Part shown: positions 27,330 to 53,569 of the stretch, one piece after another
Layout: each line of letters begins with the position of its first letter
Position numbering within the stretch: the first letter of the stretch is position 1
DNA from: Candidatus Cloacimonadota bacterium
GTDB taxonomy: Bacteria > Cloacimonadota > Cloacimonadia > Cloacimonadales > JAJBBL01
Assembly: GCA_019429305.1 (NCBI GenBank)
Contig: JAHYIR010000004.1
Location: forward strand, 1 to 64,000
DNA: 64,000 nucleotides
Direction of reading: 5' to 3'
Made by a program: the position numbers and the translations under genes
Notes under the pieces: model-generated
Seen by the model: the letters and a program-made list of their open reading frames with translations, nothing else
What the model was told of the DNA's origin: nothing
The model's database searches: none

Positions 27330-30329
27330 CTACTTTAACAGCAGGCATTTTTTTATGGATATTGGTTTGTTATCAATGAGCAGTTGATAGAAATAGATAC
27401 CACTGGCTACATCTTTCCGGAAATCGTTTTTCCCATCCCAGATCAGAGTGATCTGAGAGTCACTATCAACATGAGCTTTGTATAGATTACGAACTCTTTG
27501 TCCTTTGATGTTATAGACGATCAGTTCTGCTTCACCTGGAGTGTTAACTGAGAAAGAAAAATGGGTAATGGCATTAAAGGGATTGGGGTAATTACTATGT
27601 AATTTGGCTGGCTGTATTGTTCTATTGGAAGATGAGTCAGCTGCCAACGATCTAATTTGTCCACTGCTATAAGTACGTTCGGTATAAGTCAGGGTAGCTA
27701 AATCTGTTTGACTTGGTGTTTGAAATTGCACATAATAGAAATCGTTAGGGTTTACCATTGGTTGGTTGTTATCATATTGTTGCCAGGGTGTCCATTCTAT
27801 GAGACCTACATTGTCAAACCAAACAGAACCAGCTCCTAAATCCTGCCCGTTACTCATCAGATAAATATCAAAATACCCGGCATTTCCAGGAACACTTAAC
27901 TCTTTGTGAAAGTAAGTCCAATCATTCGTACCCGATAATGAAACTACTAAATCTTCGCTACCAAGAGCATAAGAAATTGTCCGGGTAGTATAATAACGGA
28001 TCTGTATGTTGGCACTACCAATGCTCTCTGTTTTAATATAACCATTCAGTGTATAGCCGGTATTCTCGTATTTTTTTATCCTTAGCTTGAGATTGTTGGA
28101 GAGAGAGCCGGTACCGGGAGCTCTGTTATGTCTAAGAGAACGTTCTCCTTGATAGGCTGTTATGTTGTCATAAGAGACATTAGAATTGGACGTATTCCAT
28201 AAGGTGCACCCTTCATCTTCAAAATTACCAAACCAGATAAGTTCTCTTCCCAGTCGGTATTGGTAATTACCAGAAGGTTGTATATACATCAGATTTGCTG
28301 GATAGGCATTTCTTGTAAAACGCAAAGGTCGGGAATACCAGATGTTGTTCTGTTCTTGAAAGCTGAGTACTCCTTCATAATGGAAATCTGAGAAGTTCAT
28401 TGACAGAGTATCCATGATAACATAAGCCCTGATCTCGTCTCGGTCTATGTCGAGATAAGTGTCGAGTTCTTTGGAACGACGGGCGAGATAATCGAGAATA
28501 TGTAGTCCGAGCTGTCCTGTAGCCGGCTGTGGGATATAATCGTCTATATAGACCGGTGTAACGGAATAGCCGACAAAGCCGGTTTCATCGGCTTCGGCAT
28601 TGAGGATCATAGTCGGCATGGTTTCCGGATAATCGAGATCGAAGATATAATTACCGAGTGAATGAGCGATCAGTTTACCGTTATACACTTCCAAACCTTG
28701 AATAATATGCGGATGATGGGAAACAACAAGATCTGCACCCGAATCAATCATGTAGTGACGAATTTCTCTATCCCACATCTTTGGAATATCCAAACGACCA
28801 AGAAACTCTTCTCCGACATATAGCTCACCATATCTGAAATAGTCGTAATCACTGACCGGACCGAGAGAATATTCGCTTCCGGAATGAAGATACATAATCA
28901 CTAAATCTGAAATATCCCTTACAGAGTTGATCTGTTGCTGAACATAGTAGGGTGTCATATAGGCAAAACCTGGTCTGTTGTATCCGGCTTGCAAATAGGG
29001 CTGGAAGTTGTTATAATGTCCTGTGCGGTCACTAGAAGAGAGAAAAGCGACATTGATCCCTTTCTTAGTAAAAAAAGCCGGAAGATATGCTTCATATGAG
29101 TTAGCACCTGCACCGAGGTGTTTAATACCGGCAGTCTCTAAAACCTGCTGTGTTTGTTGTAAACCGGGTAACATATAGTCTAAGATATGGTTATTTGCCA
29201 AGCAGGCAAGATCAACTCCGGCATAAACGAGTCCAGCAACGTTATTAGGGTGTCCTTTAAAACAGATAGTTTTGGTGGGGTGGGTGGTTGTAGCAGTGGT
29301 CAGAGGGGATTCGAGATTGATAGCAGTGATGTCGGCTGCATTTCCGAGCAAATGGAGAGTCGGTTCAAAAATGGCCTGCACACCCTGAGTAGGAATGATC
29401 CCACCGGCTTGTTCATAACTACGTGCTAACATTACATCACCCACAAAATTGATCCTGAGAGGTAAATTAGAATCACCATCAGGTATATCTACCTGTGTCG
29501 AAGCAAAACCCCAATTACCGGCAGGATTGATAACAGCCAAAAACACTGTAAAGGGGTAATCAGCTACTATCAGATAAGTATGAGCCGGATTCTGTTCATT
29601 GCTTGTTCCTCCATCTCCAAAATCCCAATAATACTGATGTTCATCATAATCAGGGTCATCAACAATACTGTAAAACTGCACATCAAATTGGCGTTGATGT
29701 GAGCTTGTGTGGTAGATTCGATTAGAATTATAAGTGATCTGTACCTGTGGTTGCGAAGGGAGTATTTCTGTGATATCCAAGATCATATCGAAAAATAGGA
29801 CCCCCGGCTGAGGTAGATTGTCGTTGTCATTAACAAAGACGATACTCGTGATAGTTGGTTCATATTCGAACCAAGCCATCCAATCATTTCCGACAGGCAA
29901 TTGATAGAGATTCCATGTATTATTGGGAAAGTAGCCCTGATAAACAGAGAGCCACTCTTCAATATCGAGCATAGTTGTACCAGCAAAAGAATAAAAGAGG
30001 ACATTTTCATTGTCCATTAATCCAAAACCTTGATATCTACCGACAGATTGGATAAAAGAGGCAACTTGCCAGACAGAATCGGTGGTTAATGGTAAAGGGT
30101 CTATCTCCAATATCTTCCAGGTATTACCGAAAAGTTTTAAAGAGTATTGTGAATCACCATAGGTATTACTTGAATCTAAAGACCAAGCATCAGGTTGCAT
30201 ATCTTCACCGGGATAAGAGAGAAGATCAATAGTACCCAGATTAAAATCTTCTATTACATATTGAGCATATAAAAAAGATGAAAGTAGAAACAGAAAGCCC
30301 AATATCAAGAACCTGCTTGATTTATACAT
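27330..30329 (-). CDS. Secreted CapA-like metallophosphatase with PKD domain and C-terminal sorting domain
   Basis: ATG 30329 (ribosome-binding site GGGGGAA) gives 999 residues. A signal peptide (1-22) is followed by an N-terminal beta domain, then a PKD domain (about 205-290; YYWDFGDGGTSNEQNPAHTY). The CapA/PGA_cap metallophosphatase core (about 290-560) shows NFVGDVMLARSYE, NLESPLT, LANNHILDY, HSGSEYS and SHHPHIIQG...HSLGNYIFD. A carbohydrate-binding-like jellyroll covers about 700-850. The last 85 residues are a FlgD-like sorting domain (SNYPNPFNAITHF...GIYFYQLL...KKCLLLK). CapA relatives take part in poly-gamma-glutamate or capsule work, but an extracellular, sorted version suggests a surface phosphoesterase of unknown substrate. 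It is probably co-transcribed with the upstream RCC1 gene. Confidence 0.85.
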   Translation of the reverse strand: MYKSSRFLILGFLFLLSSFLYAQYVIEDFNLGTIDLLSYPGEDMQPDAWSLDSSNTYGDSQYSLKLFGNTWKILEIDPLPLTTDSVWQVASFIQSVGRYQGFGLMDNENVLFYSFAGTTMLDIEEWLSVYQGYFPNNTWNLYQLPVGNDWMAWFEYEPTITSIVFVNDNDNLPQPGVLFFDMILDITEILPSQPQVQITYNSNRIYHTSSHQRQFDVQFYSIVDDPDYDEHQYYWDFGDGGTSNEQNPAHTYLIVADYPFTVFLAVINPAGNWGFASTQVDIPDGDSNLPLRINFVGDVMLARSYEQAGGIIPTQGVQAIFEPTLHLLGNAADITAINLESPLTTATTTHPTKTICFKGHPNNVAGLVYAGVDLACLANNHILDYMLPGLQQTQQVLETAGIKHLGAGANSYEAYLPAFFTKKGINVAFLSSSDRTGHYNNFQPYLQAGYNRPGFAYMTPYYVQQQINSVRDISDLVIMYLHSGSEYSLGPVSDYDYFRYGELYVGEEFLGRLDIPKMWDREIRHYMIDSGADLVVSHHPHIIQGLEVYNGKLIAHSLGNYIFDLDYPETMPTMILNAEADETGFVGYSVTPVYIDDYIPQPATGQLGLHILDYLARRSKELDTYLDIDRDEIRAYVIMDTLSMNFSDFHYEGVLSFQEQNNIWYSRPLRFTRNAYPANLMYIQPSGNYQYRLGRELIWFGNFEDEGCTLWNTSNSNVSYDNITAYQGERSLRHNRAPGTGSLSNNLKLRIKKYENTGYTLNGYIKTESIGSANIQIRYYTTRTISYALGSEDLVVSLSGTNDWTYFHKELSVPGNAGYFDIYLMSNGQDLGAGSVWFDNVGLIEWTPWQQYDNNQPMVNPNDFYYVQFQTPSQTDLATLTYTERTYSSGQIRSLAADSSSNRTIQPAKLHSNYPNPFNAITHFSFSVNTPGEAELIVYNIKGQRVRNLYKAHVDSDSQITLIWDGKNDFRKDVASGIYFYQLLIDNKPISIKKCLLLK

Positions 30330-30396
30330 AGTTCCCCCAACGCAAGGTTTGATCAAACCAGAAAATTATTTTAAGTATTTTCATATACAGGTGATC

Positions 30397-38073: not shown

Positions 38074-38170
38074 AGTAGCATAGAGTTTTGATTGTGTATT
38101 ATTTTTTTTATTCCCTACCACGTGTTATAATGATGATTAACACAGGCAAGATGACGGTTGAATAATCTGT

Positions 38171-38305
38171 GTAGGGGCGGTTCACGAACCGGCCGTTTTT
38201 TTAATAATTATCCGACAAATTAGCTGTTTCTTGATTCAAAGATGAAACGGTTCACGATAAAAAGATGAAAAATACTCTAATAGGCGGTTCGTGAACCGCC
38301 CCTAC
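38171..38305. mobile_element. MITE-like element with about 20-bp terminal inverted repeats
   Basis: The left end GTAGGGGCGGTTCACGAACC (38171-38190) is exactly inverted at 38286-38305, and the match continues a few bases inward with one mismatch. Each end is itself palindromic (CGGTTC..GAACCG). The interior of about 85 bp has no coding capacity and includes GAAACGGTTCACGAT, another partial copy. It may be a non-autonomous element or two adjacent palindromic repeats. Confidence 0.55.
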
Positions 38306-38499
38306 ACTGCATTATAAAGCTATTATGAGCTAAATATAATCCAGAGTACTTACCAAATCTTGCTAACCTAATCCCTGTCATCTGAGTGTTCTTCATCATA
38401 TTTGGTACAGACTACTCAGAGTAACAACGGTGTCGAACTGACAAGAATTCCAAAAATCACTCAAGGTGAAACGAGTAAAGTTTCCTTATATGAAATATT

Positions 38500-41400
38500 T
38501 TATCGAATCATATTCCTTCTTGGAGGTAAGCTCTCCCTGATTCTGGTGGGGAATCTTTCTACCGTTATGCGATAGAAAGATCTTGGTCCGGTAACGAGTT
38601 CATAATATGTAGTTAGCGTACTTACCGGTCGGACAATCAGGTTTTCAGGTCCGGCAGTAAAGTAGGGGTCTTCTTCTTTGTAGATATTAAAATTATCTAC
38701 ACTCAAAGGGTATGACCATTGTAACTGAATAGCATTGTTATTTGATGAATATAGTATAGTTAAGTCATCAATAGGGGGTAAAGGGAGCCACGTGATTTCT
38801 ATTGGTCCATAAGTATTATTTAACTCATCACTCTCATCAACCTCTTCATCGGTATCGATCTGAAACCATGAGTTCCAATTTTCTGCTACGTAGTACTCGA
38901 ACTCAAAAGGAACAACAATTGGACTACCCGGAGTAACAGAGGTAACATTAGCATAGAGATCTCCAACCATACGTGGTGTTGGAGCATCATCGAGATTAAA
39001 GTACAAGTCCAGATAAACTGGATTTGGAATATCCATTGTACCATTATTCGCTACTGTAGCCGAAAGAATGATCGTATCACCAACATAAGGATTCGATATT
39101 GACCAGTCGATATCTATAATTTCCAGATCAACGTAGCCTAATACTACCCAAGCAATTCGACTATATAGGTCATCTTCAAAACTATCACCACTAAAAGCAC
39201 CAGAGACATTATTAAAGGTTACCGATCCCTGATCCAGGGTTTTTCTTACATTATTAGTACCACTCCAGGTATTGGCAGGAAAAATGGCATTATTAACCTG
39301 TAATGTTTGATTATTATTTATCGTTAAGAGAGTACCTTCTGCTATACCATTTCTGAAAGTACAATTATGAAATGAGTGAACAGGATCTACAATAGCTCCA
39401 TCCATAATATTTATACCATTCGTACTCGTGTATTCAAAAATTGCTCTATTAGCTGAGATAGTTCCACCCGAATAAACATTAAGATTATAATGACCTTCTG
39501 TGTGGGTAATTAACGCATTTTGAGCAACAGTACCGGCTATAGTAAGAGTACCACCAAGATTAACATTGATAGATCCATTGTTACCAATCTCTACTTGGTT
39601 GTTTTGGACACTTAACTTAGCTCCGTTACTAATGTTGATATTTGATCCTACTCTAAGGATGTTTCCGTCCATTCTTAGTTCATTTCCGCTTAAGATGTTC
39701 AGATTACCCAGAACTTTCAATGGTTCGGTACTATCTGATGAATATACATAGAGTTCGTTCTGTCCATCAACACTAATTACTAATTGCCCAAAATGAGCTA
39801 ACGCACTTTGAATTCTTATCGCACCACCATAGTAACCTCTCATTACAGTCACAACGGACAATGGTAATTGTACTGTAGCACCATCGTAAGCGAACCAATT
39901 ACTATAGCATTGAATTTCACCATTTGATATTTGTGCTAAAGAACCAGGATACCAGTTGATATTCCATCCGGATCTTAACAATTCCATATTGCTATTCATC
40001 AGTATCTTATCATGAACCAGAATATGTTGACCCACATTGGCTTCGTATCCGTTTAGCTTGAATGTTCCGTTGTATACGATCAAACTTCCTGAGCAGTTAA
40101 AATTACCTAGTAAAACAACACTGTTTGACCTGGTATCAATGTTTATTGTGCTTAATGTTGACCTAATCACTCTTCCAGAATCCGCGATAGTTATACTTTC
40201 ATTTTCTCTAGCGATCTTATCAACAACTACATTGAATGGACTTCCTGATGAGGTAAGAACGTATGAATCATTTGCAGAATGTAGATAAAAAGTTCCTCCC
40301 ATTGGATTAAAATCAGCCCGATCGCAATAAAAATTGCCTACTGTACGGATAGTTCCACCTGTTATATTATCTGTTAGTGTAAATACGGTTTCAGAATTGA
40401 TAAATAGATGATGGTTGGACATTTCTATCACACCATCACTCATATTTATGATAGCACTTCCTTGTTCTGATGGCCAGTAGATAGTACCGTCTCCACCAGT
40501 AAGGTTCATTTCACCACCCGACATAGTTATACTACCCCATAGATCGAGGAAACCGGTCGGGGATTGATGCAAATTCATTATTCCATCTGAAACACTGAAA
40601 TCTCCTCGCATTACTACTTGAAATAAGTCATTTGCAGTGAAAGTACCACCTGATACGCTTAATGTTCCGGAAGTCCATTTATAAAAATCGCATTCTGTAA
40701 CACTTTCTGGGAAATCTAAATATGCACTACCTGATTTATTGACATTTAATAGATAAAAATGCTCACCATAACAAGAACTGTTTCCAGTCCCCGTAAAAAT
40801 TACTTCTCTATTACCCTCCTCAAATCCAGATGGACCGACCAAATTAGTCCAATCACCTGAAATTTGAATTATCGGAGGAGCGATAAGGACTCCATTTTCA
40901 ATCAGCATACTACCGGCAATGTTAAGGGTTGTTGTTGCAGTTACAGTATTATCAGTTCTTGCTGCTTCAATTGCATTACCAAATCTATCTATTTTAGATA
41001 CTGAACTAATATTATCGCTTCTATCAGTAACATTCTTATTTATGTGCAAATCATAGACATTGGCACCATTCACCATACTAATTATTGAATCAAAACTACT
41101 ATAGAGCTCTAAAGCGCCACCAGTAGGATTAAAATTGCTCCTATTACATACAAAATCCCCTACTGTTCTAATGACTCCACCTGTTATATTCTCTGAGAAT
41201 GTATAAGTTGTACTATTATATACTCTAATTCCCTGATCTTTGAAATCTAATATTCCCCCACTCATATTTATAAAAGCATCTCCACCCCAAGACCAATAGG
41301 ATAAATCAGAACCACCATAAACATTAAACTCTCCTCCCAGAATAGCAATATTTCCGTTTAGATCTATATAACCATCATTATGGACATTAATGATCCCTGT

Positions 41401-44400
41401 TGGGTAAACCAGCCAGTGTCCTGCAATTCCATTATCAGCTAAAGAAGTTGTGTTGAATACTCCAGTATCGGCTACTAATGTTCCCGATGTCCAGTTATAA
41501 GAATTACAGTAAGTTGGATTTGTTGATATACGTAAGCTGGCAGTCGGAGATTTGTTTAACTCCAAGTTATTGAATGTTTCTCCGTAGCAATAGCTGTTGT
41601 CAGTACCATAAAATACTACTAATCCTGACCCTTCTGTAAATCCCTCAGGACCAACACTATTGATCCAATCACCGGAAATATTTATCACCGGTGGAGCTAC
41701 CAGAATACCCTCTATGATCCATAGTTGACCGGTAATGTTTAGATTAGTTAAAGCAGTGACAATATTAGGGTCAGTTCTTTGACTTACTGATCCGGAAAGA
41801 AGTTGGTGATCATATCTTGAAATTTCCTTATTAATATACAAATTGCATAAACTAGAACCACTTACTTGAGATATTGTAGTGGAATTGCTTCCATAAAGTT
41901 CTATAATGCCAGCAGATGGATTAAAATCTGGTCTCTCAATCAATAAGTTACCCTTGATTTTTATTGTACCGCCTGTTATTGTTTCAGTAAAGGTATAGAT
42001 AGGGTTGTTGTGAATTCTCACCCCTTGATCCTTAAAATCAAGAACACCATTACTCATGGTAATTGTTGAATTATTAGTAGCTGGCCATAATGAGTAAGAA
42101 ATACCACCATAGACATTAAATTCACCACCATGAATATTTAGGTCTCCATTTAGATCGATAGACGAACCTACATTATGCAAATTGATTACACCAGAAGCAA
42201 TTGACCAGGACCCCACTATTCCGTCATCAAGCAGACTGTTTGCTGTAAAAGAACCAGTACCTACATAAACAGTACCTGCAGTCCATTTAAAAGCAGCACA
42301 TGTTATATGTCTAATATAACCTGAGATTTTAAATTCTTTACCTGGCTTGTCTATCTCCAGAATATGGAAATCTTCACTTTGATTACAGGTCTGATCATGA
42401 CTGCTACCGTAGAATACAACTCGCGAACTACTTTCAATAAAAGCATGAGGTCCAACAGTGTTATTCCAGTCTCTGCGGATTCTAATAGTATGACTATTGG
42501 CGTTGAAGAAACCGTTAACAAGATTAAAAGATCCTCTTATCTCAATATCACTGTTAAGATTTACAATAGAAGCTGGAGAGATAGTCAGATTTATTAAGTG
42601 GTCACTAGAATTATTAAAAGATATAGTTTGAGATTCACCATTCATCTTTAATTCACCGTCTGTAAAAGCAATACTACCTGTACTTGTTAGATTCCCCTTC
42701 AATTGCGTGATTTTATTATGATTCGAAGCATACGTACTGCCGGCTAAATTCCAGAGATTTCCGTTAATAGTGAACCCAAAAAATGATGTACTACTGATTA
42801 TCAATTTACCGGGTGCTGTCTTATTAGATATTAAATGATGAAATTGAGTGTTAGCGGAATTATTAATAATAGTAGAATCATTACTTCCAGTGAATTCCAC
42901 ATAACCTAATTCCATCTGTACATTTGATCCAATTTCGAAAACCATATTGCCATTGCAATATATATCAGCATTACTGTGTGTAATAGATACCGAGGAATTA
43001 GCTAACCATGTTACATCACCATTAACGATCAAATTTCCATAAGAATGGGTCATTATCAATTGCCCGTCAATGATCAATTCATCAGAAATGTTTAGATGAT
43101 TTGCATTGATCTCGACACTTGCTCCGGAGTTTATTTTCAGACGATAGATAAATACTTCAGCATCAGCAATAACTGGGTAACGAACTTGTCCTTCTGGTAT
43201 GATCACGTCATCGGTTATACCCGGAACCGTACTTTTTAGCCAGTTACCTGCTGTATGCCAATTAGTTGAAATGTCACCTGTCCAGACGTTTGGTGGACTG
43301 TCTCTTAACATGAAGGTGATCGTTGGATCCCCTGATGGTCCAACATCTGTTATGACAAGATCACCATCCGGAGTAGTAAAATTATCGATATACAACCAAG
43401 GTTTCGGGTCAGTATAGTTATGGATTTCAGTTCGTCCGACATTATTTGAATAATTCGCTTCATTAAGGATGCCATTTACATCGATTGTACCCCCGGGTCG
43501 ATAGATATAGATCTCGTCTGGTGGACCATTTATGTTTCCTCTTAAAGTTGTTCCGTCATAGCTTGTTTGTACCCGATAGATTATTAAACCAGTAGCTGGT
43601 AGATGATACTCATAACGACCGACTTTCCGTCTATATTCAACAATATAGAATTGATCAGGGTCACTTGATAGTATTTTGTAGGCAGCGAATGGTGACTGAT
43701 CAATAGCTTCAAGAGTGTAAGTTGTTGGAGTCACAGTGGGAGTTATCACAGGTATGGATGCAAACCAGGTTCCATATTTCAGTTTACTATAGACAAGAGA
43801 GTGTCCACGGCCATTAGACATCAGACACCAAGCACCAACAGGAGATATTCCAGACCAGGGTTCATTATCTACCGGTTTATGATAAAAATCCGGAAAGCCG
43901 ATCTCATGACCCATTTCATGGCACAAAACTCTTACTACCAATGATGTTTCAAACTGAAAAATCAAACTTCTAACATTAACACCATGAATAGTACCTACCG
44001 AACCAGAAAAACCCCACCGTGTTGGCCATAAAATATTTCCCCAATTGTCTTTTTCTCCACGAAAGATGAAAGTAAGACCATCTAGTCTTCCGTCATCATC
44101 ATTATCATAGTCTAGATAATCCGGTACATGCTCTTCAATTTTTTCTACCAGTTCAGTTGCTAACGCTACTAGTCTACTATTATATTCAGATTCTGTATAG
44201 CCAATAGGATTAGTTACTTCATTATAAGGTGAATAGTAGCCACGGGGATTATCTAATACGATTGAGACAACACTGCTTGAAGGACCGGCAGTTGGCCGCA
44301 GAATACTATTGATCGACAACTGACTATTGGAAACCTCATTGTAATAGTCTTTTAGAGACGATTGAGATGTTGAATTGAACATATTCTGATAGTAGGTATA

Positions 44401-44844
44401 GTTATTATCTGTAGGAAATTCAGTCTGATCGCTGAAACGCACAAAACCCACTATATTGTTAATCGTACCGATCGGTGAAGTTCGATATCCTTCTCCTCGA
44501 TAATGCTGTTGCTCTCGACGACGTTGATCAATGGCCGGATCTTTTTTCAACAAGCCAGGAGATATTCCTAATATAGAAGGATCATATTGACCAACAATAT
44601 ATTCGGAATGGGTAATTGAATCTCCATCAGGTATGGCATAAACTATATATCCTGTTCGGGGGTGAACAAGCATTGTATAATTGTTTTCATCGTGTACGCG
44701 CCGATAGTATTCATCACCAGTGATAAATGCTTCATAAGTAGAACCATCTGGCTGGGTGATAGTATATGGCATGTTTTCTACAAAATGAGCAAATAATGTG
44801 CAAATTATAAAAGCGAAACCTAAGATCACAAGTAACTTTTTCAT
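38500..44844 (-). CDS. Giant secreted M6-family metallopeptidase (paralogue 1)
   Basis: ATG 44844 with GGAGG gives 2114 residues. The signal peptide (1-20) is followed by a propeptide shared with paralogue 2 (FVENMP.TITQPDGST), then the M6/immune-inhibitor-A-like catalytic domain with the zinc motif HEMGHEIGFPDFY (His309, Glu310, His313) and an Asp-rich DNDDDGRLDG loop. From about 540 (WTGDISTNWHTAGNW) to about 1880 there are beta-rich low-complexity repeats, including three tandem units of about 270 residues. A CARDB domain (about 1900-2015; IDIDWSISNPYVGDT) and a final Fn3-like domain (ending FYRITVERF and a basic tail) close the chain. It is likely a cell-surface or extracellular protease. 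It shares promoter and leader sequence with paralogue 2. Confidence 0.9.
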   Translation of the reverse strand: MKKLLVILGFAFIICTLFAHFVENMPYTITQPDGSTYEAFITGDEYYRRVHDENNYTMLVHPRTGYIVYAIPDGDSITHSEYIVGQYDPSILGISPGLLKKDPAIDQRRREQQHYRGEGYRTSPIGTINNIVGFVRFSDQTEFPTDNNYTYYQNMFNSTSQSSLKDYYNEVSNSQLSINSILRPTAGPSSSVVSIVLDNPRGYYSPYNEVTNPIGYTESEYNSRLVALATELVEKIEEHVPDYLDYDNDDDGRLDGLTFIFRGEKDNWGNILWPTRWGFSGSVGTIHGVNVRSLIFQFETSLVVRVLCHEMGHEIGFPDFYHKPVDNEPWSGISPVGAWCLMSNGRGHSLVYSKLKYGTWFASIPVITPTVTPTTYTLEAIDQSPFAAYKILSSDPDQFYIVEYRRKVGRYEYHLPATGLIIYRVQTSYDGTTLRGNINGPPDEIYIYRPGGTIDVNGILNEANYSNNVGRTEIHNYTDPKPWLYIDNFTTPDGDLVITDVGPSGDPTITFMLRDSPPNVWTGDISTNWHTAGNWLKSTVPGITDDVIIPEGQVRYPVIADAEVFIYRLKINSGASVEINANHLNISDELIIDGQLIMTHSYGNLIVNGDVTWLANSSVSITHSNADIYCNGNMVFEIGSNVQMELGYVEFTGSNDSTIINNSANTQFHHLISNKTAPGKLIISSTSFFGFTINGNLWNLAGSTYASNHNKITQLKGNLTSTGSIAFTDGELKMNGESQTISFNNSSDHLINLTISPASIVNLNSDIEIRGSFNLVNGFFNANSHTIRIRRDWNNTVGPHAFIESSSRVVFYGSSHDQTCNQSEDFHILEIDKPGKEFKISGYIRHITCAAFKWTAGTVYVGTGSFTANSLLDDGIVGSWSIASGVINLHNVGSSIDLNGDLNIHGGEFNVYGGISYSLWPATNNSTITMSNGVLDFKDQGVRIHNNPIYTFTETITGGTIKIKGNLLIERPDFNPSAGIIELYGSNSTTISQVSGSSLCNLYINKEISRYDHQLLSGSVSQRTDPNIVTALTNLNITGQLWIIEGILVAPPVINISGDWINSVGPEGFTEGSGLVVFYGTDNSYCYGETFNNLELNKSPTASLRISTNPTYCNSYNWTSGTLVADTGVFNTTSLADNGIAGHWLVYPTGIINVHNDGYIDLNGNIAILGGEFNVYGGSDLSYWSWGGDAFINMSGGILDFKDQGIRVYNSTTYTFSENITGGVIRTVGDFVCNRSNFNPTGGALELYSSFDSIISMVNGANVYDLHINKNVTDRSDNISSVSKIDRFGNAIEAARTDNTVTATTTLNIAGSMLIENGVLIAPPIIQISGDWTNLVGPSGFEEGNREVIFTGTGNSSCYGEHFYLLNVNKSGSAYLDFPESVTECDFYKWTSGTLSVSGGTFTANDLFQVVMRGDFSVSDGIMNLHQSPTGFLDLWGSITMSGGEMNLTGGDGTIYWPSEQGSAIINMSDGVIEMSNHHLFINSETVFTLTDNITGGTIRTVGNFYCDRADFNPMGGTFYLHSANDSYVLTSSGSPFNVVVDKIARENESITIADSGRVIRSTLSTINIDTRSNSVVLLGNFNCSGSLIVYNGTFKLNGYEANVGQHILVHDKILMNSNMELLRSGWNINWYPGSLAQISNGEIQCYSNWFAYDGATVQLPLSVVTVMRGYYGGAIRIQSALAHFGQLVISVDGQNELYVYSSDSTEPLKVLGNLNILSGNELRMDGNILRVGSNINISNGAKLSVQNNQVEIGNNGSINVNLGGTLTIAGTVAQNALITHTEGHYNLNVYSGGTISANRAIFEYTSTNGINIMDGAIVDPVHSFHNCTFRNGIAEGTLLTINNNQTLQVNNAIFPANTWSGTNNVRKTLDQGSVTFNNVSGAFSGDSFEDDLYSRIAWVVLGYVDLEIIDIDWSISNPYVGDTIILSATVANNGTMDIPNPVYLDLYFNLDDAPTPRMVGDLYANVTSVTPGSPIVVPFEFEYYVAENWNSWFQIDTDEEVDESDELNNTYGPIEITWLPLPPIDDLTILYSSNNNAIQLQWSYPLSVDNFNIYKEEDPYFTAGPENLIVRPVSTLTTYYELVTGPRSFYRITVERFPTRIRESLPPRRNMIR
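40250..42420 (-). repeat. Three tandem protein repeats of about 270 residues inside M6 paralogue 1
   Basis: Units begin at about 42415, 41612 and 40800 on the minus strand, a period of about 800-815 bp. Each starts with an F(Y/T)G(S/T)..(N/Q)..C segment followed 26-28 residues later by a second Cys in C..(F/Y).W(T)(S/A)GT. Later landmarks recur: GGE(F/M)N(V/L), ITGG.I, and R.(D/N)FNP. The third copy is shorter at its end. One related copy is in paralogue 2 (about 48480-49070), where the second Cys is lost. Divergence is too high for a recent duplication at the DNA level. Confidence 0.75.
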
Positions 44845-45021
44845 AGCAACCTCCAAAATTTTATCTCGAAAAATTGGTTTTGAATCGGAATCTTATTATT
44901 AACTACAAAGAATATGGAATCTGACTCTAACTATATATAGCAGTAAAAATCTTATGATGAGTTGATTATTATTATATCAAAAAACAGCACCAATTGTAAC
45001 ATAATAACCTTCATTAATATC

Positions 45022-45134
45022 TCCTCATTTGAGGATTAAAAGGTTCTGTTAGCAAATCTCGTATCAGCAAATAATTACAATAAAATGATATCACTATCAA
45101 TTTATCTATTAAGAAATTGGAGATATTTTGTCAA
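45022..45134 (-). promoter_or_regulatory. Promoter and conserved leader of M6 paralogue 1
   Basis: On the minus strand, TTGACA (45134-45129) is followed 17 bp later by TAATAG. Then come TTATTTGCTGA (45074-45064) and the hairpin TCCTC-AAAT-GAGGA (45035-45022), about 180 nt before the ATG. The same elements occur at nearly the same spacing before paralogue 2. Confidence 0.6.
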
Positions 45135-45409
45135 GAACAATTTTGGTACTAAGCAAATTTAATTGTTTTGTTTGATTGCTTTTGGCTAATGATAAAGTAC
45201 AAACTACTCATATCTGAAAAGATCATGACTAATTAATCGATTATAAAATTACCTAAAGCAACCATAAGGTGTCTCTATAGTCGGATACCATCCGACTATA
45301 GAGACACCTTATGGCATATCATTTCTTCAACTGTGGTTAAGAAGTCATAATTATGACCATATAAACTCTGTTTTATTTACAGGTTAATCTTAACAAATAA
45401 TTACTTCAT
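45135..45409. other. Spacer between M6 paralogue 2 and the promoter of paralogue 1
   Basis: With the leader, this makes the 565-bp gap between the two M6 genes. The only strong structure is the 53-nt perfect palindrome at 45262-45314. Confidence 0.6.
45262..45314. repeat. Perfect palindrome with 25-bp arms and a 3-nt loop
   Basis: The left arm 45262-45286 (CCATAAGGTGTCTCTATAGT...) is exactly inverted at 45290-45314, with ACC between. There is no mismatch and no T-tract. It is 95 bp downstream of the stop of M6 paralogue 2 and about 130 bp upstream of the promoter of paralogue 1. Confidence 0.95.
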
Positions 45410-48400
45410 TTATTCGCCCATTATAAAGTTGCCATTGGCTGGTCTATCCAAATATCGTTCTGCACTAACCCTATAAAAAAAGAAAGGTCCGCTTACTGTT
45501 TCAGTATATTCGGTTTGGTTGCTGGGTGGACGGATGATCAAGTTATCTTCACTCGGAGTAAAATATGGATCAGTACTGCGATAGATCTTGAAATTGTCAG
45601 CTGAGGTTGGATATGTCCAGCTAAGATGAATTGAATTTGTAGCAGATAGATATTCGATATTAAGGTCTGTTATCATTGGTAATCCTAACCACGTGATGGG
45701 TACAGGGCCAAATATATTGTTTGATGTGTCTATATCGTCCACGAGCTGATCAGGGTCAAGATACAGCCATGTATTCCATTCTTCGGGAATTCCATGTTCT
45801 ATCGTGAAATTATGGGTTATCAATTCCCCGGGAGCCATAGCCCGGATCATTCTATTTTCGTCTCCGTTACTAAAGGGAGCCGGCGGATCATCAAGATCAT
45901 AATACAAATGAAGGTAAATGATTGCTGAAATATTGGATGATCCGGAATTCAGGATCGTCACAGTAAGAGTAGAACTATCCCCAAAATAGGGAATAGGATT
46001 TGACCACTCTGCACTGACGATCTGGATATCTATAAATCCGGCATCAGACCAAATAATACGATTATATGTATCATTATCGAATGCTTCTCCACTGAAATCA
46101 CCATATGATTGAATAAAAGAGACACTTCCCTGATTAACTGTTTTTGAGACGTTACTCAAGCCACCCCAGGTATTTGTCGGGAAATGAGCCAGAGGAATTG
46201 TTACTACATCACTGTTGTTTATAGTTAATAAAGTCCCATCTATACTACCATTTCTGAAAGAAGAGTTTCCTAAAGAAAAAACTGGATCTATTGTTGCTCC
46301 GCTTTTAACGTGGAGACCATTAGATGTCATATATTCAAATAATCCTTGAGTAGCTGCAATTGTACCGTTTAGTTCCACATTAAAATCATAATAGCCAAAA
46401 AAACTCGTAACTGTTGCTGGTATTCCGGAGCTTCCATAGACTTCCAAGCGGCCACCACCGTTGACATTCAAACTCTTAAAATTCCCCATATAGAGAGTTG
46501 AACCGGCATCGAGCTGTAAAATTGCCCCATTGTTGATGTTTAAATTCCCTGTACAAATTATGTTATGACCGTTAGAATCGAGAAAACCTGTTTCAATTGT
46601 GAGATTTCCTTCATTCATCAGAGGTAATGAAGAACCGAGACTGACCCTTTGATAGCGTAAAGTCCCATCATCAGTGTCTGTTCGGCTAACTGATTTGTCT
46701 ATAATAACATCATAGAAATTACCTGAAGTGCCATTATAGGTAATAACCTGATCCTCGGCACCATTAAAATGCACACTGTTTTGTGTATTGGAATTGAATC
46801 CGCCATTAGGATTAACAGTAAAATTATTATAGAAATGATGATTGAAGTAATTACCCGTATCATGCCAGAGTCCTCCATTTAGTTCGAAGGAACCATGAAC
46901 CTCCACTGGATTATTGATAAAGCAATAGCTACTGGCTGGTTTTTCGATGATCAAATTGTAGAATTCTAAAGGAGCTCCAGTACGAATAACACTCTGATTA
47001 CTTGTACCATTGAAAATTACCGTAGATTGATCATAGAAAAAACCGGTTTCATTACTACTGGTGGAATTATTATCGATCCAATTGCCATTGACAACGATAT
47101 ACGACTCATTGGAGTAATATGTGTTCAGTCCTGCCATAGAAGATATTGTTAGATGATAGGTAATTAGATAATTGTCTTCTGCCAATACCAGTGTTCCATT
47201 ATCTATAAGGAGATGATTGTGGATGTGCATTACGACACTATCAGACATTATAAAATAAGGAAAAGAAGTCTTATTCAGAGTCAGATTATAAAATTCTTCA
47301 TTACTGTTAATAGATTGGAGCGAACTGCCATTGAAAACTACCAAACCATTTCTCTCATTAAAAGCTGTAGAGCCGATATTATTAGTCCAGTTGCCTCCAA
47401 TAACTATACTGTAATTGGAAGGAGATACGTCAAGATTTCCTGATGCAATGGTTAGAGAACCTTTAATAATAAGATCATTAGCTAAGAAAAATCCTGTCGG
47501 ATCAGAATCGATAATCAGATTCGGTAACCAGTTACCGTTTGATATGTTCAGAGCATAGTTCCCACCGGAAAGATTTGTATTGAAGATTACTGTTCCTCCG
47601 GCAGGTTGGAAAGTATTCGGATGAACCGCATTAATACCGTTACATTTCAAGGTACCGCTATTTATCGTAGTTAAGGAACCGGCTTCTACTTCCAGGGTGT
47701 TATACCAGGCTTCAAAATTACCGGAGTTGATATTAAGAGTACCACGTAAGTAATTTGTTCTTGGTAGAGTAGAGTCAAAATAGTAGAAATTTCCACTGTT
47801 AATAGCTAAAAGACTGGTAGGGGCGAAATCAGGTTTACCCTGGATCATAGCTGTCGTAGTATGGATATCGAGTTTGCCGTCCAGATCGAGATTACCCAGA
47901 ACATAGAGGTCTTTGTTGCCAAGATCAAGTTCATTGTTTGCTGCGATGGTAAGATTACCCGTAACCCATAGATCGGTTGTACTCGAGTTATGTGTTGTAT
48001 AAGTACCCCCCGTAGTTCCATCTCCGATGATCAAATTACCAAACTGGGTACTGGTATCTCCCAAGAGGATAGATCTTGACCAAGGTGATTTCAGGTGAGT
48101 TGTCACTATAGCTGGGAGCACTACATTAGCTCCATTATAAACACTCCAGTAAGAATTGCATTCTATCGTACCCGCTGTAATTTGTGCTTCCGAACCATCA
48201 TACCAGAAGAAATTTCCACCTGATATGATCTTATCGAGAGGATCCCACATTCTGAGTTGATCATAGATAAAAATGTCGTTTGTAATATTGGCTTCGCGTC
48301 CCCAGAGCCAGAGTGTTCCATCTTCCAGGGTAAGATTATTATTAGCGGTAAGATTAGACATCAATCTTACTGTATTTGCCCGGGTTTCACGGATAATATT

Positions 48401-51400
48401 TCCCTCTCTGTCACGTCTGATGATATCCGATCTTGTGACAGGTCCGTTGTCAATGCTACGATCAGTTTTATTGATCTTCAGATTATAAAGAGTTCCGACT
48501 GTCATATTTAATTGGGCATCTATCGAGGAATACAGCTCTATTGTACCACCGGAAGGGTTAAAATCGTTTCTATGACAGGAAAAGTTTCTTGATGTCCTGA
48601 TCGTACCACCGGTAATATTGGTATTGAAAGTTTCAGCTGAGGCAATAAAGATGCCATTGTCGTGAACATCGATCAGACCATCCTGCATATTCAGGGCGGC
48701 ATATCCATCATAAGGCCACCAAGAGTCACCATTACCACCATAGAGATGCAATTCTCCCCCTGTGATGTTCAGTGTAGCTCGTAGATCAAGATATTGGGAA
48801 CTCTCTTGATGTAGATGGATAAATCCTGAGTTGAGATTAATTATTCCTCTGATCCAGGGGTCTGCCATATCCAGAGCAGTGAAAGTGCCACCATTGACAG
48901 TAAGAACTCCTCCAGACCATTTATAGGAATTACTGGTAACCGTGTTTCCGTAGGGTATTATAAGCTGACCATAACCTGCTTTACCGAGCTCGAGTTCATT
49001 AAAAACTTCATTGTAACAATAACTGTCGGTAGTGCCTGTGAAAATTACTTTAGAATTAGCTTCATTAAAAGCGGCTGAACCAATAGTATTATCCCAATGA
49101 CCAGATAGCTTGATAGTATATGAAACCGGATAGAGTACTCCACTCCAAATAATTAAATTTCCTGTTATAGTAAGATTACTGTTCAGAATAACGCTGTCAG
49201 AAGGATTGATCTCAAGATGATGAAAATGAGCATTTGTACCTGCTAAATAAATTGTCTGATTATCACCACTCATCTTGAGAGTTCCTGTATTCCATTGAAT
49301 ACCTGAGTTGTTATTTAGATCGGATAAATTACCTAAAAGTGTAACAGTACCACCAAAGTTATTATTGGTAACACTCGTACTACTATTAACTAAATTACCA
49401 TTAATGTTAAAAGGATGTAAAGTTTCTGATGAGATAGTTAAGGTACCGGGTGATGATTTACTGGAATGCAAATTGTTGATTATTCTTCCGGGGCTTTTTA
49501 TGATCAGTTGAGAGGGGTCAGAACCATAAAATTGCAGGGTTCCGTTGTGCATGTGGAATAATGAACCGGGTTGAACTATAAGATCTCTATAACAGTTAAT
49601 GGCAGCACCAGGATTAAAGATATATACTGATGAGCCGTCTTCCCAGACCAAATCACCATGAACAAAGATATCACTATCGGCATTTACCAAGTTGATCTGA
49701 TTCTTCACTGTCATATCACCAGAAGCAGAAAGATAGTAATTCTGGATCGTTAAAACGGCATCATCCATAATCGTAATATCTTTACAATAGGCATTACCTT
49801 CAGATATAATAGGGTCGTACCATGGACTGCCATGAATAATGATGTTATCATTTCCTGTAGGAACAGTTTCAGGCTTCCAGTTGTTAGGATTATGCCAATC
49901 TGATGAGTAAAAACCTATCCAATAATGAGGGATAACATCCCTTAAAACAAAAGAAATAGTTTCACCTCCAGCAGGTCCTATATCCGTAATAATAAGTGAA
50001 CCATCAGGAGTAGAATTATTATCATAATATAACCACGGTTTTGGATTCATATAGTTATGGATAGCTGTGCGTCCCTGTGGGGTTGGATAAGCTGCCGCAT
50101 CAGGTGTTCCATTAGTATGTATAGTTCCATCAACACGGTAAACATATACCTCATCCGGAGGACCATTTTTATTACCATTTATCGGTTGTCCGCCGTAACT
50201 TGAGATAATGCGATAGACTATCAAGCCGCTATTGGGATTACCTATCTCATAGCGACCGGTTTGTCGACGGTATTCTACTACATAGTACTGATCGGGATTT
50301 GTACTCTCTATCTTATAAGCAGCATAGGGAGAAATATCTACTGCAGGAAGTGTATAAGTGGTTGGAGTGCTTGTTGGAGCAATAACAGGTATTTCCGTAA
50401 ACCAGGTTCCATATTTCCATTTGTTATATACCAGACTATGATTGTTATTACCGGAAGCCATTAAACACCAACCGGCAACTGGTGCTATGGTATTCCAGGG
50501 CCATTCATTACTGTAATGATAAAAATCGGGAAAACCGATCATATGCCCCATTTCATGACAGACTACTCGAACTCCGATACGTTCTTCGAAATTATAGACA
50601 CAGTGAGTTACATCTATACCATTTATAGTACCAACAATGTTACCAAAACTCCAGTGAGTTGGCCAGAGAATATTTCCCCAACCATCTACATCACCACGAA
50701 AGACAAAGGTCAACGCATCCAAAATACCATCATTATCATTATCTAAGTCCATCGTAGGTATATATGGTTCAATTTTCTCGATCAACTCACCGGTTAAATC
50801 ATATAGTCTTGACCACATTTCGTTTTCATCATTATAACCCGTTGGATTAGTCGTTGCATTATAGGGAGAATAGTAATTTCTCGGGTTATCTGCTTGGATG
50901 GATAATACAAAGCCACCCGTTTGTGGAGGAGGATACAAATGAGAATTTACAGTCAGTTGACCACTGGAAACCTCAGTATAATAATCTTTTAATGATCTGT
51001 CTGAAGTAGAATTGAACATATCATTATAAAAGTTAAACGAGGTCGTGTTAGGAAATTCAGTCTGGTCACTAAAACGTACAAAACCAATGATGTTATTAAG
51101 TGTACCTACTGGAGAACCGCGATTCCCGGCATCACGATTTGCCTGCTGCTCTTCTCGCAAACGATCTATTGCCGGATCTTTTTTAAATAGATGAGGGACT
51201 ATACCCAAAGTTGCCGGGTCAAACCTTCCTGCTATATAATCGGATTCTTTTATTGAGTCACCTTCAGGAATAGCATAGACTGCATAACCCGTTTTCGGAT
51301 GAAGGACAAGAGTATAACCATTATCGTCGTGTACTCGACGATAATACTCATCACCTGTTACGAAAGCTTCCAAAGTCGAACCATCTGGTTGAGTGATAGT

Positions 51401-51487
51401 AGTAGGCATATTTTCAACAAAACCTGCATAAAGAAAAAAAGGCACTAAAGCGATAGTCAAAATCATAAGTAATATGAACTTATACAT
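45410..51487 (-). CDS. Giant secreted M6-family metallopeptidase (paralogue 2)
   Basis: This is a 2025-residue protein. The start ATG 51487 has TAGGAG. A signal peptide (1-21) precedes a propeptide closely similar to paralogue 1, then the M6 catalytic domain with HEMGHMIGFPDFY (His311, Glu312, His315) and a calcium-loop-like DNDNDGILDA. A W.G..S.DWHNPNNW junction (about 525) leads into a long beta-rich region rich in Asn, Gly, Ser and Thr, including one copy of the 270-residue repeat found three times in paralogue 1. CARDB (IQIVSAEWSNPIPYFGDS) and a terminal Fn3-like domain (ending FFYRVSAERYL) follow. The two genes are in tandem and clearly arose by duplication, with the middle regions diverging most. 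Likely an extracellular protease or adhesin. Confidence 0.9.
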   Translation of the reverse strand: MYKFILLMILTIALVPFFLYAGFVENMPTTITQPDGSTLEAFVTGDEYYRRVHDDNGYTLVLHPKTGYAVYAIPEGDSIKESDYIAGRFDPATLGIVPHLFKKDPAIDRLREEQQANRDAGNRGSPVGTLNNIIGFVRFSDQTEFPNTTSFNFYNDMFNSTSDRSLKDYYTEVSSGQLTVNSHLYPPPQTGGFVLSIQADNPRNYYSPYNATTNPTGYNDENEMWSRLYDLTGELIEKIEPYIPTMDLDNDNDGILDALTFVFRGDVDGWGNILWPTHWSFGNIVGTINGIDVTHCVYNFEERIGVRVVCHEMGHMIGFPDFYHYSNEWPWNTIAPVAGWCLMASGNNNHSLVYNKWKYGTWFTEIPVIAPTSTPTTYTLPAVDISPYAAYKIESTNPDQYYVVEYRRQTGRYEIGNPNSGLIVYRIISSYGGQPINGNKNGPPDEVYVYRVDGTIHTNGTPDAAAYPTPQGRTAIHNYMNPKPWLYYDNNSTPDGSLIITDIGPAGGETISFVLRDVIPHYWIGFYSSDWHNPNNWKPETVPTGNDNIIIHGSPWYDPIISEGNAYCKDITIMDDAVLTIQNYYLSASGDMTVKNQINLVNADSDIFVHGDLVWEDGSSVYIFNPGAAINCYRDLIVQPGSLFHMHNGTLQFYGSDPSQLIIKSPGRIINNLHSSKSSPGTLTISSETLHPFNINGNLVNSSTSVTNNNFGGTVTLLGNLSDLNNNSGIQWNTGTLKMSGDNQTIYLAGTNAHFHHLEINPSDSVILNSNLTITGNLIIWSGVLYPVSYTIKLSGHWDNTIGSAAFNEANSKVIFTGTTDSYCYNEVFNELELGKAGYGQLIIPYGNTVTSNSYKWSGGVLTVNGGTFTALDMADPWIRGIINLNSGFIHLHQESSQYLDLRATLNITGGELHLYGGNGDSWWPYDGYAALNMQDGLIDVHDNGIFIASAETFNTNITGGTIRTSRNFSCHRNDFNPSGGTIELYSSIDAQLNMTVGTLYNLKINKTDRSIDNGPVTRSDIIRRDREGNIIRETRANTVRLMSNLTANNNLTLEDGTLWLWGREANITNDIFIYDQLRMWDPLDKIISGGNFFWYDGSEAQITAGTIECNSYWSVYNGANVVLPAIVTTHLKSPWSRSILLGDTSTQFGNLIIGDGTTGGTYTTHNSSTTDLWVTGNLTIAANNELDLGNKDLYVLGNLDLDGKLDIHTTTAMIQGKPDFAPTSLLAINSGNFYYFDSTLPRTNYLRGTLNINSGNFEAWYNTLEVEAGSLTTINSGTLKCNGINAVHPNTFQPAGGTVIFNTNLSGGNYALNISNGNWLPNLIIDSDPTGFFLANDLIIKGSLTIASGNLDVSPSNYSIVIGGNWTNNIGSTAFNERNGLVVFNGSSLQSINSNEEFYNLTLNKTSFPYFIMSDSVVMHIHNHLLIDNGTLVLAEDNYLITYHLTISSMAGLNTYYSNESYIVVNGNWIDNNSTSSNETGFFYDQSTVIFNGTSNQSVIRTGAPLEFYNLIIEKPASSYCFINNPVEVHGSFELNGGLWHDTGNYFNHHFYNNFTVNPNGGFNSNTQNSVHFNGAEDQVITYNGTSGNFYDVIIDKSVSRTDTDDGTLRYQRVSLGSSLPLMNEGNLTIETGFLDSNGHNIICTGNLNINNGAILQLDAGSTLYMGNFKSLNVNGGGRLEVYGSSGIPATVTSFFGYYDFNVELNGTIAATQGLFEYMTSNGLHVKSGATIDPVFSLGNSSFRNGSIDGTLLTINNSDVVTIPLAHFPTNTWGGLSNVSKTVNQGSVSFIQSYGDFSGEAFDNDTYNRIIWSDAGFIDIQIVSAEWSNPIPYFGDSSTLTVTILNSGSSNISAIIYLHLYYDLDDPPAPFSNGDENRMIRAMAPGELITHNFTIEHGIPEEWNTWLYLDPDQLVDDIDTSNNIFGPVPITWLGLPMITDLNIEYLSATNSIHLSWTYPTSADNFKIYRSTDPYFTPSEDNLIIRPPSNQTEYTETVSGPFFFYRVSAERYLDRPANGNFIMGE

Positions 51488-51907
51488 GTAAAACTCCTAT
51501 TTCGTTTTGTTAGGGAAATTCTTATTTTTTTTCTTGTTGTTCCTTCAGAAAAAAGCAATTATAAGGTAGATAATAAAATGAGATTTTTGTTGTTTCTCTG
51601 TAAGGAATTATAAAACAAAATCAATAAAAATCAAACTTGATGAACAATTCCATCATTCCTCCATGTAAGAGGAAAAAGTACTTTCAGAAAAATACGCCTC
51701 AGCAAATAACTAATATAAAATGTTATCTCTAACAGGTTAGATTGTAGAAAATAGTTAATATCTTGTCAAGAATTAATTAAATCTATAATAATATTGTGCT
51801 TTAAACTATTTTAGATAATCCTTTGTAGCAATGAGTTTCAACTTTTTTGGAAGGTTGGTAAGCTAATAGTAGTTCTGTAAATAAAAGAGAAAAAGAATTA
51901 TACTGCT
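51488..51907. other. 420-bp intergenic region upstream of M6 paralogue 2
   Basis: It contains the conserved leader described separately and AT-rich sequence. No gene is seen. Confidence 0.6.
51656..51769 (-). promoter_or_regulatory. Promoter and conserved leader of M6 paralogue 2
   Basis: On the minus strand, TTGACA (51769-51764) and TACAAT (51746-51741) are 17 bp apart, a good sigma-70-type promoter. TTATTTGCTGA (51709-51699) lies at exactly the same distance from the -35 box as in paralogue 1. The hairpin TTCCTC..GAGGAA (51674-51656) follows, about 170 nt before the ATG. Confidence 0.7.
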
Positions 51908-53569
51908 TTAGTACTTAAAGATACTACCTCCAATAAACTCACGTAAGATGGAATTAGAGGGAACCATATCATCGGGGATATCGAGCATGTGTTCCACAAG
52001 GAAAATGATTTTCTGAGCTTCCGTATAAACAGGAGAGTATTTAGAAATTCTATAAAGAAGGGGGAGGAGGTGTTTTTTCAGAACATTGATTTCATAGGTT
52101 AAGCCGCTATTAAACATAATATCGGCATTTTCCTGATAGGGGAAGATATTCCTATTCTCACCGTCGCTGATCTCAGTCCAACGTTCTAAAGTAGCTTCAG
52201 CCGAATAGCCTCGGAAAAAATTATCTCGCACTATACGACGGATCTTACGAAAATAAGTTGTAGCAATACGATTATGATTATCTATATTTAGTTGATTCAG
52301 ACAGCTAATATATACTTTGATACTCTGTTCGTTTTTCAGAGAAGCGGATAAATGTTCATTGAGTCCATGAATCCCTTCAATCATAATGATATTATTTTTA
52401 TCTAACTTTATGCGGTGATTGCCTTTTTCTCTTTTACCAGTCAAAAAATTATATTTGGGAGGTTCAATAGCATTTCCTTTGAGTAGCTGTTTGATATGCT
52501 CATTAAACAGATCAAGATCAATAGCATGGATGTTTTCAAAATCATATTCTCCTGTTAACTTAACAGGTGTAATAGATCGAGGATGAAAATATTCGTCCAA
52601 ACCAAAGATTATTGGTTTGATCCCATTAACTTGCAATTGAATAGATAGTCTTTTAGCAAATGATGTTTTGCCTGATGATGAGGGTCCTGCAATAAAAACA
52701 GCTCTGACATCTTCTTTTTTACTAATAGTTTCTGCAAAGTTCACGATCTTTTTCTCGTGTAAAGCTTCTTCAATTTGGATCATATTAAGAATTTCGAAAT
52801 TCTCTATCTTGGCATTAAGATCGCTGACATTATGAACATTAAAGATGTTCAACCATTTATCTGATTCTTGATGCACTAGAAAGAGTTTCTTAGGATAGTT
52901 AAAGTCGGGATGAACTTTCCTGGTACTTTTTATTGGAAAACGAAGGGCAAAGCCGGGAGAATTCATATTCAGTTCGAATTCAGTAATGATTCCCGTGTTA
53001 TCACAGAGCTGTCTGATATAGTAATCGTGATAATCTCCACACTTGAAGACGGGAACATACCCTTTATGATTATACTTCAGGTTTTTAACAACATCCATTC
53101 GATTCTGATCTGTAAAGATCTTTCTGGCTTCATTGATACTGATCTCGATATTTTCTATATAGAGCTCTTTCTCAACTATATTAAGCATTTCTTGTTTTAT
53201 TTGAGAAAGGTGCTCTTCTGTAAATTCATCAGTACCAAAGACCTCACAGTAGATACCATCACCGATCGAATGTTCGACCACCAAACTCCAATTCTTCGGG
53301 AATAATCGATAAAAAGCTTTTGCCATGATGAATATTGCTGAGTCTTGGTATATACGGAATCCCTCTTCAGATTCGAAACCTACACAAACTAAAGTCGAAT
53401 CTTCAACGATAATTTTATTACTGTTCGCAAACTCATTGTTAAGTTTGAAGCTTATAGTATCAAAATTTGTCAGATTTCGCTTAGATATTACTTGTTTTAT
53501 AGTTACCGGTTCTTCATATGTATAACTCTCTAAAAACTCTTTATCCTGGTATAGATCAACTTTGAACAC
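51908..53569 (-). CDS. Nucleoside (uridine-type) kinase fused to a ThrRS-like editing domain
   Basis: This is a 553-residue protein. Residues 1-60 are a TGS-like segment, and 60-250 resemble the second additional domain of threonyl-tRNA synthetase (IFIMAKAFYRLFP...EHSIGDGIYCE). Residues 285-553 are a phosphoribulokinase/uridine-kinase domain with Walker A GPSSSGKTSFAKRL, the LDEYFHPR substrate motif and IIMIEGIHGLN. This fusion is a known family of bacterial nucleoside kinases (Udk-related). Phosphorylation of uridine or a related nucleoside is likely, but specificity is not certain. It is divergent from the yitT gene. Confidence 0.8.
   Translation of the reverse strand: MFKVDLYQDKEFLESYTYEEPVTIKQVISKRNLTNFDTISFKLNNEFANSNKIIVEDSTLVCVGFESEEGFRIYQDSAIFIMAKAFYRLFPKNWSLVVEHSIGDGIYCEVFGTDEFTEEHLSQIKQEMLNIVEKELYIENIEISINEARKIFTDQNRMDVVKNLKYNHKGYVPVFKCGDYHDYYIRQLCDNTGIITEFELNMNSPGFALRFPIKSTRKVHPDFNYPKKLFLVHQESDKWLNIFNVHNVSDLNAKIENFEILNMIQIEEALHEKKIVNFAETISKKEDVRAVFIAGPSSSGKTSFAKRLSIQLQVNGIKPIIFGLDEYFHPRSITPVKLTGEYDFENIHAIDLDLFNEHIKQLLKGNAIEPPKYNFLTGKREKGNHRIKLDKNNIIMIEGIHGLNEHLSASLKNEQSIKVYISCLNQLNIDNHNRIATTYFRKIRRIVRDNFFRGYSAEATLERWTEISDGENRNIFPYQENADIMFNSGLTYEINVLKKHLLPLLYRISKYSPVYTEAQKIIFLVEHMLDIPDDMVPSNSILREFIGGSIFKY

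Follow-up and report, generated by a model that had tools for sequence, protein, structure and literature searches.

A constrained promoter-leader element precedes two paralogous M6 metalloprotease genes in an uncultured Cloacimonadota bacterium

Introduction

Two large genes arranged in tandem on the minus strand of an uncultured Cloacimonadota bacterium, here called genes A and B, are preceded by similar stretches of DNA, which raises the question of whether this similarity is a relic of gene duplication or a shared control element and, in the latter case, at which level it acts. The genes lie in a 64,000-nucleotide (nt) stretch of contig JAHYIR010000004.1 (hereafter the window), which is part of a 2.39-Mb genome of 52 contigs that is scored 99.9% complete and whose closest named relatives by protein search are Candidatus Cloacimonadota metagenome-assembled genomes. 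Gene A (38500..44844, ATG at 44844) encodes 2114 amino acids (aa) with a signal-like N-terminus and an M6 metalloprotease domain (TIGR03296), and gene B (45410..51487, ATG at 51487) encodes its 2025-aa M6 paralogue. Both exceed the NCBIfam cut-off of 110.8 bits (A, 122.1; B, 132.5) and carry the HExxH zinc site as HEMGH, and thus have the features of M6 metalloproteases. The two proteins are 62% identical over the first 515 residues, the M6 region, and 43% identical overall. An earlier note, written from the letters of the window, had described a conserved promoter-leader module in front of both genes; a literature search found no promoter study for the phylum Cloacimonadota. Our analysis indicates that the module is a real, constrained promoter-leader element of the two paralogous genes and not a known riboswitch.

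Results

Both genes have a predicted promoter of the sigma-70 type (TTGACA, a spacer of 16-18 nt and a TATAAT-like hexamer). For gene B it reads TTGACA-17-TACAAT (51769..51741, TTGACA at 51769..51764, minus strand), agrees with the consensus at 11 of 12 positions and was the top minus-strand site in our promoter scan. For gene A the conserved -35 box TTGACA (45134..45129, minus strand) is followed after 17 nt by a weak -10 box, TAATAG (45111..45106, 3/6 matches to TATAAT). The sequence TTCTTGACAA(A/G)ATAT is conserved in both leaders, and from TTCTTGACAA onward a block of 120 bp is 66% identical between A and B (79/120). Within this block, the 11-mer TTATTTGCTGA (exact copies at 45074..45064 for A and 51709..51699 for B, minus strand) starts 60 nt after TTGACA, and GAGGA follows at +48 from the 11-mer start in both leaders, with a further 177 nt (A) or 169 nt (B) to the ATG. 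Indeed, the matching order of TTGACA, 11-mer and TCCTC/GAGGA hairpin that the earlier note had reported was correct in all its distances.

The block ends sharply. Identity per 20-nt bin from -60 to +60 relative to the 11-mer start was 15, 11, 15, 15, 13 and 10 of 20, against 4 to 10 of 20 in the bins on either side, and the flanks could not be aligned above chance (P 0.32 for the upstream flank and 0.25 for the final 160-170 nt of leader). Local alignment of the two leaders scored 44, whereas 1,000 dinucleotide shuffles gave a mean of 14.6 (standard deviation 2.0) and a maximum of 23, which bears out the existence of a conserved module. BLAST of the leader within its own genome likewise matched the pair at E 1.5e-7.

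The leaders also look unusually long, since TTGACA lies 290 nt (A) and 282 nt (B) from the start codon with no closer box of that type, whereas 16 of 48 TTGACA-type boxes in upstream intergenic DNA, sampled from the window and selected other loci of the genome, cluster at 45-66 nt before the start codon. A 25-bp perfect inverted repeat with a 3-nt spacer (45262..45314) separates the end of gene B from the gene A promoter. It is terminator-like, without a strong T tract, and is the predicted terminator of the B transcript, so that gene A is probably a separate transcription unit that needs its own promoter. A second promoter-like TATAAT, equally offset in the leaders of A (44976..44971) and B (51612..51607), was rejected as weak, such sites occurring at about chance frequency.

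Could the similarity simply reflect a recent duplication? At fourfold-degenerate sites of the M6 region (n=135), identity between A and B is 34%, where composition predicts 33%, and over the whole genes it is 29% against 32% expected. Because these sites are saturated, a block of 66% identity cannot stem from a recent duplication, and recent duplication as the full explanation is ruled out. These data point to two old gene copies, whose block was either kept by selection or copied between the genes afterwards. That the block sets in precisely at the -35 box, and that both leaders measure much the same between 11-mer and ATG (222 and 230 nt), makes selection the more probable of the two. Judged from sequence comparison, the block is probably under selection, and the conserved stretch is probably a control element.

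The 11-mer, which the earlier note had pointed out, proved unexceptional inside a block of this identity, as an identical run of 11 bases is expected in about 30% of shuffles of the block's match pattern (P ~0.3). The genome holds seven exact copies of TTATTTGCTGA, and a genome-wide motif was dismissed since the five beyond the pair are unrelated and mostly lie within coding sequence.

No third copy of the block was detected in the genome itself by BLAST, a profile model (R1) or pattern searches; R1 recovered the pair at E 2e-32 and 2e-31, and the next match had E 0.09. A search of related genomes with the leaders, which the earlier note had proposed, was run with R1 over the order and the phylum and gave no additional copy in 124 other Cloacimonadota genomes. 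The top non-self matches (L097 and L098, best E 4e-4) lie antisense inside coding open reading frames (ORFs) and were set aside as chance. Because no congeneric genome and a single genome of the same family were among the 124, this negative result is a poor guide to the age of the block. On present evidence, the block does not represent a widespread family. The earlier note had named two findings that would speak against its module, a lack of further copies and an explanation by recent duplication alone; the first is what we found, with no copy beyond the pair in 125 phylum genomes, whereas the second is incompatible with the saturated fourfold sites.

Other M6 leaders and known RNA families gave no relative of the block. 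A third M6 paralogue, L011, has a block-like layout (a GCATC-ATTT-GATGT hairpin, then TTATTTACTGA / TTATTATTATTTACTGA), and was rejected with an alignment at chance level (P 0.09-0.16). The closest M6 relatives, the G081/G082 orthologues (55-56% identical), carry a distinct long leader without likeness to the block, and the similarity of their leaders to each other says nothing on constraint because their fourfold sites are still 71-76% identical. In the 250 nt leading up to the M6 ATG (L091, L092 and L094), the putative G081/G082 promoter lies 212-214 nt before the ATG, and their conserved leader contains a hairpin of ~8 pairs (GGAATATC/GATATTCC) that is unrelated in sequence to the block. 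The M6 subclade that includes G081/G082 may tend toward long leaders. None of 4227 Rfam models matched the window at the gathering score, in agreement with the earlier note, which had recognized no riboswitch class; loose thresholds (E up to 10) returned only chance matches, the best (E 0.28) far under the gathering score.

A consensus fold of both copies (RNAalifold) picked out a hairpin directly past the -10 box, which the earlier note had not mentioned. It is predicted as UAAA-U-UGAUA-GUGA-UAUCA-U-UUUA in gene A (45104..45081, core 45099..45086, minus strand; -3.9 kcal/mol) and as UGUUA-GAGA-UAACA in gene B (51734..51721, minus strand; -2.4 kcal/mol with flanks), in each case with a GNRA loop. 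Three of the 14 columns differ between A and B: two form one compensatory pair (A-U to U-A), and the third is the N of the GNRA loop, its freely variable second base. In 5,000 column shuffles, a shared GNRA-capped hairpin, a criterion chosen post hoc, never appeared, and a shared hairpin of at least 5 pairs appeared in 41%. The placement of this hairpin at the mRNA 5' end is a prediction shared by both copies, the 5' end itself being inferred solely from the promoter.

The TCCTC/GAGGA hairpin of the earlier note lies farther downstream. In gene A it reads TCCTC-AAAT-GAGGA (45035..45022, with TCCTC at 45035..45031 and GAGGA at 45026..45022, minus strand; predicted -6.4 kcal/mol) with a Shine-Dalgarno-like 3' arm, GAGGAG, and in gene B TTCCTCT-TACAT-GGAGGAA (51674..51656, with TTCCTC at 51674..51669 and GAGGA at 51661..51657, minus strand; predicted -8.7 kcal/mol) with GGAGG in the 3' arm. 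A Watson-Crick stem of at least 5 pairs over GAGGA occurred in only 0.3-0.4% of shuffles (P 0.004 for A, 0.003 for B), which places the hairpin above chance expectation. The stem sequence is identical in both genes, no compensatory change separates them and the 5' arms are shifted by 3 nt in register, which does not bear out the earlier suggestion that this hairpin reveals selection for structure. Of the two predicted hairpins, the one at the 5' end is the better structural evidence.

In contrast, the proposed likeness of GAGGA to a ribosome-binding site was borne out, as it matches the Shine-Dalgarno core and an ATG stands 4-6 nt past the Shine-Dalgarno-like sequence in both leaders. The putative upstream ORF of gene A (44952..45014, minus strand) encodes 20 aa, MKVIMLQLVLFFDIIIINSS, and starts 6 nt past AGGAG, and that of gene B (51621..51656, minus strand) encodes 11 aa, MMELFIKFDFY, with its second ATG 4 nt past GGAGG; such sites were seen in 6% and 4% of shuffled leaders, respectively.

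Discussion

Taken together, the interpretation in the earlier note stands in that the module is conserved, is not a recent duplication, contains a Shine-Dalgarno-like GAGGA and has no Rfam family, and is not supported where it read structure selection into the named hairpin and gave the 11-mer a special role. The computations support constraint on the block, dissimilar flanks and shared predicted structures. While the constraint is well supported, from these results we infer the mechanism, in which the block would comprise a lineage-specific promoter and the start of a long leader acting at the RNA level, where a 5' hairpin and a gated remote Shine-Dalgarno sequence set mRNA stability or translation. 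We give this reading a probability of about 0.4.

According to this reading, the 120-bp block would consist of a sigma-70-type promoter and the first 80-90 nt of a ~250-nt 5' leader. The transcript would start at, or just ahead of, the small GNRA-capped hairpin, continue through a mostly single-stranded stretch including the 11-mer and then enter the hairpin holding the Shine-Dalgarno-like GAGGA, 170-180 nt ahead of the true start codon. If both hairpins form in vivo, the 5'-terminal one could shield the mRNA from a 5'-end-dependent endonuclease, ribonuclease (RNase) E/G or RNase Y, genes for both of which were found in the genome. Ribosome binding at the remote Shine-Dalgarno sequence would be gated by its hairpin, possibly with translation of the short upstream ORF, and would determine how stable the long protease mRNA is or how well it is translated. 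Going further, it is doubtful that this is a new RNA leader, specific to a lineage in Cloacimonadota, in which distant upstream ribosome loading, and through it the lifetime of giant secreted protease mRNAs, is controlled by the 5' GNRA hairpin together with a hairpin of the Shine-Dalgarno/anti-Shine-Dalgarno kind.

Each part of this mechanism has a precedent. In E. coli, 5' stem-loops shield mRNA (PMC3997798). Like the ompA/papA-type stabilizers of that species, the leaders here have a predicted hairpin at or near the predicted 5' end of an exported-protein transcript in a genome with an RNase E/G homologue, but their stem is much weaker and AT-rich. In bacilli, strong leader Shine-Dalgarno sequences stabilize long mRNAs without requiring a start codon (PMC3997798; PMC4113751), and the stabilizing Shine-Dalgarno element (STAB-SD) of cry3A from B. 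thuringiensis lies far from the gene start, near the major transcript 5' end (PMC4113751). GAGGAG/GGAGG similarly lies 170-180 nt from the M6 ATG, although here it sits inside a hairpin with an ATG 4-6 nt after it. The aprE leader of B. subtilis, going by a title cited in PMC3997798, combines a 5' stem-loop with bound ribosomes on the mRNA of a secreted protease. Leader-peptide or attenuator ORFs share the short ORF and Shine-Dalgarno sequence in a long leader but differ by a conserved peptide or a terminator/antiterminator pair, neither of which is seen here. Riboswitches and other Rfam cis-regulatory families resemble these leaders in being long and structured-looking, but the latter have no Rfam match and no extended conserved fold.

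Several results weigh against an RNA-level leader. A shared hairpin with a compensatory change arose in 18% of the column shuffles, and because the GNRA-loop criterion was set after the hairpin had been seen and the 5' stem is weak (-2.4 to -3.9 kcal/mol), the shared hairpin is only suggestive as evidence for RNA structure. The promoter-proximal leader RNA has no unusual fold stability (z -0.6 and -1.65), the upstream-ORF peptides of A and B are unrelated in sequence, and the evidence base is two sequences from one genome. Moreover, no RNase J scored above the curated cut-off in this 99.9%-complete genome, so the STAB-SD route, which blocks the 5'-3' exoribonuclease RNase J1, does not apply, whereas protection from a 5'-end-sensing endonuclease could.

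The main rival, somewhat less likely, is a promoter with a DNA operator, in which a transcription factor governing both genes would bind the dyads (TGATA-N4-TATCA in A, TGTTA-N4-TAACA in B) together with the conserved sequence as far as TTATTTGCTGA, the RNA hairpins being incidental. Dyad symmetry is equally compatible with DNA operator and RNA hairpin, which are inseparable given two sequences, and an operator would also suit both the onset of conservation exactly at the -35 box and the lack of unusual overall structure in the leaders. However, the dyad spacer is a GNRA sequence in both copies, conservation extends 60 nt beyond the dyad up to the Shine-Dalgarno hairpin, and, even when 3 mismatches are allowed, the operator region is present in the genome only at A and B, which would limit the regulon to this pair.

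A regulatory leader peptide, in which ribosomes that load at GAGGA and read 11-20 codons thereby control the downstream gene by attenuation or a similar process, appears improbable: a Shine-Dalgarno-like site and start codon do stand at equal positions in both leaders, and any such site is infrequent (4-6%) in shuffled ones, but the peptides differ in sequence and length, conservation is lost past the upstream ORF (P 0.25) and no terminator-like hairpin follows. Equally improbable is shared ancestry without function, by which the block would simply be younger than the gene duplication, having passed between the genes later by conversion or local duplication. A younger neutral copy would also exceed the saturated neutral sites, and only two copies exist, but such a copy would need to begin precisely at each gene's -35 box with the register kept, and the 222- and 230-nt leaders suggest one inherited leader whose remainder decayed.

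The block thus offers a concrete case, at present of two genes in one genome, in which non-coding constraint outlasted synonymous sites between paralogues. If the leader does act at the RNA level, Cloacimonadota lacking RNase J would control the mRNAs of large exported proteases through 5'-end structure and a remote ribosome site.

Other features

Downstream of gene A, a 23-nt perfect inverted repeat (GTGTAGGGGCGGTTCACGAACCG) with arms 93 nt apart (38169..38307) resembles the end of a dispersed or mobile element. The core TTGTCATGC(T/C)GAGCGAAGTCGAGGCATCTCATCACTGATTTTAGCTAAGCATACAT marks an intergenic repeat that is dispersed in front of different genes, on the minus strand of the window (~260 nt before a start codon) and at L127. 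The protein encoded at 51908..53569 has an N-terminal stretch resembling threonyl-tRNA synthetase, joined to a C-terminal domain resembling uridine kinase. In addition, the large protein encoded at 27330..30356 carries a type IX secretion sorting tail above the cut-off (TIGR04183, 30.6 bits) and adjoins another protein of ~1,000 aa.
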